DNA from: Candidatus Treponema scatequi
GTDB taxonomy: Bacteria; Spirochaetota; Spirochaetia; Treponematales; Treponemataceae
Assembly (NCBI GenBank): GCA_018066075.1
Contig: JAGHSB010000018.1
Coordinates: 1-42,046, forward strand
Reading direction: 5' to 3'
Length of the DNA: 42,046 nt
A program made the translations under genes and the position numbers. Below the pieces are notes generated by a model. That model was not told the DNA's origin, searched no databases, and saw nothing but the letters and a program-made list of their open reading frames with translations. Shown here piece after piece: positions 13,984 to 16,502 of the stretch (its first letter is position 1; each line of letters begins with the position of its first letter).

Positions 13984-15594
13984 ATGATTTTAAATTATGT
14001 TTTAAATGGAACTTGTAAAACCGCAGTCTCTTCTAATGAAGATGTCAAAATTATTGAAAAGAAAAGCGGAAACCGTTTTGTTGTTGAAGTAAAAGCATTA
14101 AATGATATCGTTTTGATTTCTGCAACAGCCGATAAACCTGTATCATTTACAAAAACAGATTTATTTTTCTTAAACGGATACCAGTCGTGGACAGACACAT
14201 TTGAATACCATTACTCTGATAAAATGCTTGATAACAACAGCATTCCACTTTATGTAAAGAAAAAATATGCACTTCACAAATATGGAGACAGCACATTTCA
14301 TAAATACAATAAAAATGTTTTACACGGATGTGATGTTGCTTACCTCAAAGGAAACGAAACACATTTCATCGGAAACTTAAATTACAAGACAGCTTACCTC
14401 TTTATCGAATATCACAAGAAAAACAACAAACTCGTTTTACTTTCAGACCTCGCAAAAATTCCACTTAAGAAAAACAAATCAATTTCTGCATTCGATTACA
14501 TTTTTAACACAGACATCGAAAAAGGAAAGAAAGAATATTTTTCTCATTTTGAAAAAACAAAAGCAAAAAAAATAATCGGATACACAAGCTGGTACAATTA
14601 CTACCAGGACATCAACGAAGAAAAGATTTTGAATGTTCTAGATACAATTTCAAAACCTTTCGAACTTTTCCAGATTGATGACGGCTTTGAACCGTTTGTC
14701 GGTGACTGGCTTACTGTCGACAAAAAGAAATTTCCAAACGGATTAAAACCAATCGTTGATAAAATTCATTCCAAAAAAATGAAGGCTGGAATCTGGCTTG
14801 CACCTTTTGCAGTTGAAACAAACTCTGACACTTTCAATAATCATAAGGACTGGCTCTGCTGTGATAAAAAAGGAAACCCTGTAAAAGTCGGCGGCAACTG
14901 GAGCTTTTTCTATGCACTCGATTTGAGTAAACCTGCTGCAGTTAATTATGTAAAAGAAACTTTGAAATATTACAAAGATCTCGGTTTTGATTTTTTCAAA
15001 CTTGACTTTCTATATGCTGCAACTGTTACAGAGCACGAAGGTTTCAGCCGAGCTCAGTTTGCACAGAAAGCTTACAAACTTTTAAGGGATGAACTGAAAG
15101 GAAAACTAATCCTCGGATGCGGAGCTGTAGTTTCAAACTGTTTCGGTCTTTTTGAATATTTGAGAATCGGCCCTGATGTTTCTTTGAAATTTGATGACGT
15201 TTGGTACATGCGAAAACTCATGCGTGAAAGACTTTCAACAAAAGTAACATTAAGAAACACAATGTACCGCCACTTCTTTGACCACAACGTCTTCTTAAAC
15301 GACCCCGATGTCTTTCTCCTCCGCGACGACAACATCGAATTAAACGAAAAACAGCGCGAAGCCCTTACCACAATCAACGCCCTCTTCGGCAGCGTTCTCA
15401 TGACAAGCGACAACCCAAAAACCTACGACGCACATAAACAGTCCCTCCTGACCAAAGCCATAGACCTCTTCAAAAACGCCACCGTCCTCTCCGTCACCAC
15501 CGGCCAAAACAACATCACCGTAACCTACAATTGCCACGGAACTGAAGAGACTTTTGTATACAATGTGAAAACTGGTTGTCTGAGTTATATGTAA
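13984..15594 (+). CDS. GH36-like alpha-galactosidase
   Basis: FFLNGYQSWTDT, GYTSWYNYYQDI, FQIDDGFEPFVGDW, AGIWLAPFAVE, DFFKLDFLYAA, GCGAVVSNCFG. Confidence 0.87.
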   Translation: MILNYVLNGTCKTAVSSNEDVKIIEKKSGNRFVVEVKALNDIVLISATADKPVSFTKTDLFFLNGYQSWTDTFEYHYSDKMLDNNSIPLYVKKKYALHKYGDSTFHKYNKNVLHGCDVAYLKGNETHFIGNLNYKTAYLFIEYHKKNNKLVLLSDLAKIPLKKNKSISAFDYIFNTDIEKGKKEYFSHFEKTKAKKIIGYTSWYNYYQDINEEKILNVLDTISKPFELFQIDDGFEPFVGDWLTVDKKKFPNGLKPIVDKIHSKKMKAGIWLAPFAVETNSDTFNNHKDWLCCDKKGNPVKVGGNWSFFYALDLSKPAAVNYVKETLKYYKDLGFDFFKLDFLYAATVTEHEGFSRAQFAQKAYKLLRDELKGKLILGCGAVVSNCFGLFEYLRIGPDVSLKFDDVWYMRKLMRERLSTKVTLRNTMYRHFFDHNVFLNDPDVFLLRDDNIELNEKQREALTTINALFGSVLMTSDNPKTYDAHKQSLLTKAIDLFKNATVLSVTTGQNNITVTYNCHGTEETFVYNVKTGCLSYM

Positions 15595-15599
15595 ATTTT

Positions 15600-15711
15600 G
15601 ACACAGATTAATACTGATTAACACAGATTTTTAAAATTAGGTGTTCACAAACAAATATCACTTCCAAAACATCATCTGCGTTAATCCTCGTAAATCTGCG
15701 TTATCTGCGTC
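15600..15711. repeat. Intergenic inverted-repeat element made of iterated ~10-bp CRCAGATTAA units
   Basis: Left arm GACACAGATTAATACTGATTAACACAGAT (15600-15628); right arm ATCTGCGTTAATCCTCGTAAATCTGCGTTATCTGCGTC (15674-15711) is its imperfect reverse complement. Confidence 0.8.
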
Positions 15712-15800
15712 TATTTATCTAACCCTTTTCAATTGACCCGCCTTCATCGAAAAATTCCACAAAACACAAACCACATGCTATAATATTTCCGAGGTGAAAA

Positions 15801-16502
15801 ATGACATTAGCATTAACAATTCTTATTCCATCGATCATTGGACTTATTCTTCAGGGAACATTCATTGCGGTTGAGCATAAAGAAAAATATGTACCGGCTG
15901 TGATTTTGAAAGGTACAGCTTCGGTTGTATTCTGTATTCTTGGATATCTGGGATATTCAACACATCTTCTCGAAGGATGTGATTCAAGTTTACCGAAGTT
16001 TGTTTTCATGGGACTTCTTTTTGGTGCACTTGGTGACATACTTTTGAACCTCCGCTTTGTATTTGAAAAAATCGGTCAGAAAATATTTCTTGCAGGAATC
16101 GCCGCATTTTTAACAGGACATATTTTGTATCTCATTGCACTCATTCCGCTTTCTGATTCACTTTTGATTTCAATCATCTGCGGCGTCGTAGTTGCAGCAG
16201 TTATTCTTACAATCATTTTCAAAAGCTTTGAATTGAAACCTGCATTTAAGATTTTTGGAATTGTTTACATCGGCGCAGTTGTATTGATGACAGCAATCGC
16301 AATCGGAAACTGCATCACAAGCGGATTTGAGAAATCTTCAGTAATTTACGCAATTGGTGCACTTTTATTTACAGTGAGCGATGTAGTTTTGATTTTCAAC
16401 ACATTCGGACCGACAACAAAGTTCAGCTTGAGAATTACAAACCTTACTCTCTACTACTTCGGACAGCTTTTCATCGCATCTTGTCTTTTCTTCTGCCGCT
16501 AG
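15801..16502 (+). CDS. Lysoplasmalogenase (YhhN/TMEM86 family) integral membrane protein
   Basis: Multi-TM with FGALGDILLNLRF, LTGHILYLIAL, FTVSDVVLIFN. Confidence 0.82.
   Translation: MTLALTILIPSIIGLILQGTFIAVEHKEKYVPAVILKGTASVVFCILGYLGYSTHLLEGCDSSLPKFVFMGLLFGALGDILLNLRFVFEKIGQKIFLAGIAAFLTGHILYLIALIPLSDSLLISIICGVVVAAVILTIIFKSFELKPAFKIFGIVYIGAVVLMTAIAIGNCITSGFEKSSVIYAIGALLFTVSDVVLIFNTFGPTTKFSLRITNLTLYYFGQLFIASCLFFCR

Follow-up and report, generated by a model that had tools for sequence, protein, structure and literature searches.

A gene-less inverted repeat in Candidatus Treponema scatequi is a probable derivative of a small mobile element carrying a GxxExxY nuclease gene

Organization of the window element

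The window analysed here is a 42,046-nucleotide stretch of Candidatus Treponema scatequi DNA (contig JAGHSB010000018.1, positions 1 to 42,046), and it contains a 112-bp inverted repeat composed of CRCAGAT heptamers. The element is intergenic, beginning 5 bp past the stop codon of the upstream gene and lying ~90 bp ahead of the next start codon at 15801, such that both neighbouring genes are outside it. From their translations, the upstream gene (13984–15594, plus strand, 536 aa) is alpha-galactosidase-like and the downstream gene (15801–16502, plus strand, 233 aa) codes for a YhhN/lysoplasmalogenase-like membrane protein. The left arm (15600–15629, plus strand) has three heptamers with a 10-bp period, reading inward: CACAGAT (15602–15608), TACTGAT (15612–15618) and CACAGAT (15622–15628). 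The right arm (15674–15711, minus strand) has four, at 15674–15680 (ATCTGCG), 15684–15690 (ATCCTCG, two bases off the core), 15694–15700 and 15703–15709, spaced by 10, 10 and finally 9 bp; from the outside in and complemented these read CGCAGAT, CGCAGAT, CGAGGAT and CGCAGAT. Segments 15601–15628 and 15674–15701 are 75% complementary and are separated by 45 nt, and the 44-bp interior between the arms (15630–15673) has neither an open reading frame nor a recognisable remnant of the GxxExxY gene discussed below. A first-pass annotation of this DNA had described inverted arms of 10-bp period enclosing about 45 bp, and its core coordinates are correct; it was also right that the mismatches between the arms of this copy are A.C on the plus strand and G.U in a minus-strand transcript.

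Allowing up to 3 mismatches, pattern ATCTGYGTTAATCTGYGT matches the window four times, every match being inside the element, and none of 100 dinucleotide shuffles gave four (0.13 expected).

Copies in the same genome and in its relatives

The same pattern occurs 37 times in the complete assembly (2.31 Mb in 280 contigs), compared with 3 times for a reversed control pattern, showing that the window element is repeated; this and the other genome-wide repeat counts are from pattern searches. Beyond the window copy there are ~15 further paired or single arms: the pairs are on contigs C84, C149 (two), C210 and C58, and arms without a partner are on C53, C147, C101, C134, C179, C9, C143 and C278. 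The repeat is patchy among 59 relatives, being absent from most and present at more than 60 sites in some (G019 and G022). We found 16 paired copies in 0.79 Mb of G019 and 16 in 0.80 Mb of its close relative G060, in two common lengths, together with 15 and 18 single arms, respectively. A typical genome has one copy of the GxxExxY gene and dozens of gene-less copies. The first-pass annotation had suspected related repeats in other bacteria and proposed a genome-wide search; the window copy is indeed not a lone one, and matches are present in its own genome, in relatives and in many other genomes.

A GxxExxY gene between arms of the same type

The sole PF13366 gene of this genome lies on contig C58 (L066:1489–1851), has arms on both sides, and encodes a 120-aa protein that is a clear member of the GxxExxY family (TIGR04256, E = 3e-42; PF13366, PDDEXK_3), which is catalogued without a function. 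The arms beside the gene (L066:1442–1472 and 1855–1889) are of the same type as the window left arm, which is 84% identical to the second of these (E = 6e-4), and window positions 15688–15725 are 92% identical over 38 bp to an arm just 3′ of the GxxExxY gene (L066:1984–2020; E = 2e-9). The window copy thus has the arm unit sequence found at the GxxExxY gene of its own genome, as a gene-less form would, and differs from the full-length form in having arms without a gene.

Repeats and gene also occur together within the genus, PF13366 being present in seven of the eight genomes in which two or more repeat matches occur and in 4 of 28 others (Fisher P = 2.8e-4). Four genomes (G019, G021, G022 and G060) have a gene-bearing element between hisG and hisB (his and pot gene names were assigned by reading translations), and gene remnants with internal deletions but intact arms are present at L080 (G009) and L083 (G004).

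Association of arms and gene across phyla

The test for arms used the 80 GxxExxY loci of GTDB genomes that were closest to an arm-flanked query protein, of which 78 were scored; they come from Spirochaetota, Planctomycetota, several proteobacterial classes, Acidobacteriota, Bacteroidota, Chloroflexota, Nitrospirota, Methanosarcinales and others. Each was scored for inverted repetition between the two 200-bp segments that flank the gene, with a cut-off score of at least 14. Inverted arms span the gene at 56 of the 78 loci (72%), a proportion that may overstate the whole GxxExxY family because the loci were chosen by nearness to an arm-flanked query; none of 240 shifted windows at the same loci reached 14 (maximum 13), and the rate for cross-locus pairs was 11%. 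Relatives at L060–L063 and L068 are without heptamer arms, and some GxxExxY genes have other palindromes instead.

The arms are ~32 bp long, 90% identical to each other and 30–40 bp from the gene, giving a total of ~490 bp with no second gene between them. Their autocorrelation has a sole peak, at lag 10 (0.53 versus at most 0.31 elsewhere), and they are directed inward rather than outward by 47 to 4. Unit sequences are lineage-specific and include CRCAGAT, CACGGAT, CACGAAT, CACAGAG (Bacteroides), and CACGAAA and CGGAATAAA (viral contigs). Arms with other unit sequences are also found in a plasmid-record Bacteroides, Bernardetia, G050 and G004, and at two of three viral-contig GxxExxY loci; a phage search found no GxxExxY relative. 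Familiar CACAGAGGACGCAGAG-type intergenic repeats flank GxxExxY genes in Bacteroides finegoldii (L226, next to radA) and in Bernardetia (L230).

Because the units are short and AT-rich, a chance origin, or low-complexity expansion of a 10-bp tandem repeat, might be entertained. The excess of matches in the window, the retention of inverted order and the shifted-window result leave this a negligible probability, and the gene association together with the controls refutes it.

Boundaries, co-variation and presence or absence of the element

DNA homology between organisms spans the gene and both arms. At 11 of 11 right ends it stops no more than about 18 bp from the outer end of the arm, mostly within 10 bp, and in only 1 of 40 pairs does it continue more than 30 bp past that end. 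A Brocadiaceae and a Methanosarcinales locus are 76% identical in DNA across ~400 bp of the element. As judged from these alignments, arms and gene form one unit that ends at the outer arm ends. Two GxxExxY elements of one Bacteroidales genome (L131 and L143) are 83% identical in DNA sequence ending at the right arm, and have different surroundings.

Arm identity is correlated with protein identity (Mantel r = 0.29, P = 0.001), including when only between-phylum pairs are compared (r = 0.25, P = 0.001). This is expected if the protein recognises the arms, and joint horizontal transfer of gene and arms would contribute too.

Several copies are present or absent at orthologous sites. In G019 a copy of the 146-bp class lies between hisH and hisF directly after GAGAACTATATAAA, and the end of the HisH frame is altered, whereas the two genes nearly abut in G021, G022, G027 and G004, where the site is empty. 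The hisG-hisB site is likewise empty in other genomes, including that of the window, where there is an ordinary gap of ~20–60 bp. Two more sites differ between G019 and G060 (L188/L293 and L193/L266). The first-pass annotation had proposed comparing relatives for mobility, and these copies do differ in presence between genomes; the window copy has no empty-site counterpart among relatives because local synteny is not kept there. Terminal direct repeats that could represent a target-site duplication are no commoner than in a cross-locus control.

An element with its leader of the potC-potD type (L204:1379–1472 in G019, compared with L244 in G022) is 99% identical between these genomes, whereas the flanking coding DNA differs by ~20%, a pattern that points to constraint or conversion at that site more than to neutral decay.

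The gene between the arms, the boundaries of the unit, the co-variation, the gene-less and remnant copies and their presence or absence at orthologous sites are all observed at the level of sequence. We propose, with a probability of about two in three, that the window element is a MITE-like form, lacking the gene, derived from a small mobile element consisting of arms and a Cas4/RecB-like nuclease gene. The full-length form of this element measures ~490 bp and has a pair of inverted arms, each with three to four CRCNGAT-type heptamers 9–10 bp apart, that enclose the GxxExxY gene. Counting against this explanation are the many copies that are single arms, the lack of target-site duplications above control, the relatives without heptamer arms, the conservation of the potC-potD element and the missing empty-site counterpart of the window copy.

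Pairing between the arms

The first-pass annotation had raised the maintenance of a minus-strand RNA hairpin; if kept by selection, this might be a regulatory or processing structure. The window copy folds better than shuffled sequences, about equally on both strands (z = −3.8 plus, −3.2 minus), its own mismatches happen to favour the minus strand, and the conserved potC-potD element and leader could also be read in this way. The strand preference does not extend to other copies, however. Among the 56 GxxExxY elements, arm-to-arm transition mismatches would form G.U pairs in the gene-sense strand in 56 cases, compared with 46 in the opposite strand (binomial P = 0.37); there are 97 transversion mismatches, and 11 elements have all of their mismatches on one strand compared with 10.1 expected. 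The 32 paired copies of G019 and G060 split 23:23 by strand, with 113 transversions. A/G covariation across copies, which the first-pass annotation had proposed as a test, therefore shows no consistent strand preference.

The spacers argue similarly. In the G019 and G060 pairs the two arms agree at 96% within the heptamers and at only 18% within the 3-bp spacers, compared with 36% for shuffled partners, indicating that the conserved feature is not the pairing of a stem; heptamers at one-turn spacing fit a protein bound along one face of the double helix better than they fit an RNA stem. Matching below chance may reflect the common descent of two types of arm, and we do not claim selection for mismatches. 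In the GTDB-wide set the spacers match at 72% versus 57% for shuffled partners, a result that is biased upward because the set was chosen by arm score. A whole gene is often enclosed by the arms, and a search of the window against Rfam gave no match above the gathering threshold. Taking these observations together, we regard a selected RNA hairpin as very unlikely.

The arms in G019 and G060 (L186–L204 and L260–L299) look like distinct types, with an outer spacer of TAG/AGG versus TTA/TAA, which would give the element an intrinsic orientation.

The GxxExxY protein and a possible mechanism

An AlphaFold2 model of the GxxExxY protein built from a 65-row alignment has a pLDDT of 95, and its best Foldseek match in the PDB is SSO0001 (E = 1e-5, TM 0.60), followed by lambda-exonuclease-like nucleases; a sequence search of the PDB found nothing. 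We take SSO0001 (PDB 4ic1) to be a Cas4 protein. Residues E27, D66, E76 and Q90 are invariant and K78 and Y94 are more than 90% conserved, and D66, E76/K78, Q90 and Y94 are the D..ExK..QxxxY residues of the Cas4/lambda-exonuclease-like lineage. The D..ExK motif and the fold place the protein among the PD-(D/E)XK enzymes, and it is predicted to be a nuclease. It shares fold and motif with Cas4, but at only 120 aa it is shorter and is not beside cas genes in the loci read. Comparison with anti-phage system models gave only weak similarity to Cas4 and AbiEii.

If the protein recognises the arms, several nuclease protomers could bind the phased heptamers along one face of the DNA, and the inverted orientation of the arms would bring two such assemblies together. 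The nuclease would then most likely cut at its own arms, allowing the element to move or to be duplicated by host repair; the single GxxExxY gene of the genome could also mobilise gene-less copies in trans. Mobility driven by the nuclease is a proposal, and whether GxxExxY and its 10-bp-phased arms constitute an undescribed class of mobile element in bacteria and archaea, in which a lone Cas4/RecB-like nuclease mobilises itself and large families of gene-less repeats, we judge to be evenly balanced.

Alternatively, GxxExxY may not be the mobility enzyme. It could instead be cargo, or a nuclease serving the host or its defence, and act at the arms, which would be recognition or protected sites, with the arms being spread by another transposase or by recombination. 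The lack of target-site duplications would fit, and Cas4-like nucleases, which the fold resembles, have other jobs. Nonetheless, gene and enclosing arms make up a single transferable unit in different phyla and in archaea, gene-less copies are mainly where the gene is present, there is no second gene between the arms, and Y1_Tnp is missing from six of the eight genomes tested. We consider this alternative unlikely, and prefer the arm-and-nuclease mobile element.

Relationship to known systems

The closest parallel is the RAYT/REPIN system, in which a REP-associated tyrosine transposase is associated with REP doublets that form hairpins (Bertels and Rainey 2011, PMC3116915). Both have two inverted palindromic units around a short spacer, in intergenic positions and in many gene-less copies per genome, with a lineage-specific repeat sequence and a single endonuclease gene flanked by the same repeats, and the window element is likewise an intergenic inverted doublet repeated in its genome. 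A classical REP/REPIN moved by a RAYT (HUH, Y1_Tnp) transposase is nonetheless highly improbable. The gene between the arms is a Cas4/RecB-like PD-(D/E)XK nuclease and not an HUH Y1 enzyme, the arms have three to four heptamers of 10-bp period in place of single REP palindromes, and the unpaired spacers of the Treponema-like copies indicate that a hairpin is not the conserved feature. Y1_Tnp (PF01797) was not found in G000 (the window's genome), G004, G019, G021, G022 or G027, which refutes a RAYT origin for these genomes.

Like MITEs and insertion sequences with terminal inverted repeats, GxxExxY elements have inverted ends, gene-less derivatives, internal-deletion remnants and empty orthologous sites; unlike them, they have no DDE transposase and no detected target-site duplication, and their terminal repeats are helically phased heptamers. 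In the open-licence literature searched, the GxxExxY family is mentioned in two papers, only in passing, with no link to flanking arms found, and the repeat sequences occur in no paper.

The proposed element links the 'CGCAGATGAACGCAGAT'-type intergenic repeats with the GxxExxY nuclease family, both widespread and so far unexplained, and is a first concrete lead on the purpose of both. If correct, it would account for intergenic repeats of an anonymous class found in many genomes and would assign a function to a large protein family. It would also mean that a cross-domain element is driven by a PD-(D/E)XK nuclease without any other transposase gene, and that the REPIN lifestyle has been reached independently a second time. 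Direct tests become possible, both of binding and cutting by the nuclease at its own arms and of the dependence of gene-less copy movement on the nuclease.

Other elements at GxxExxY genes

The hisG-hisB site of G004 (L079, compared with L074 and L070) contains a different GxxExxY element with CACAGAG-type arms, such that this site has been hit by two types. A second palindrome family is present in Treponema-like genomes, consisting of CACACGGATTCG or AACAAACGGATTTGTTC followed by CTAACG, and flanks other GxxExxY genes (L060, L062, L065, L069, L072, L073 and L227). In G053 (L067:1200–1900), dense tandem CGCGAAT/CGCTAAT palindromes lie beside a GxxExxY match together with a run of N.
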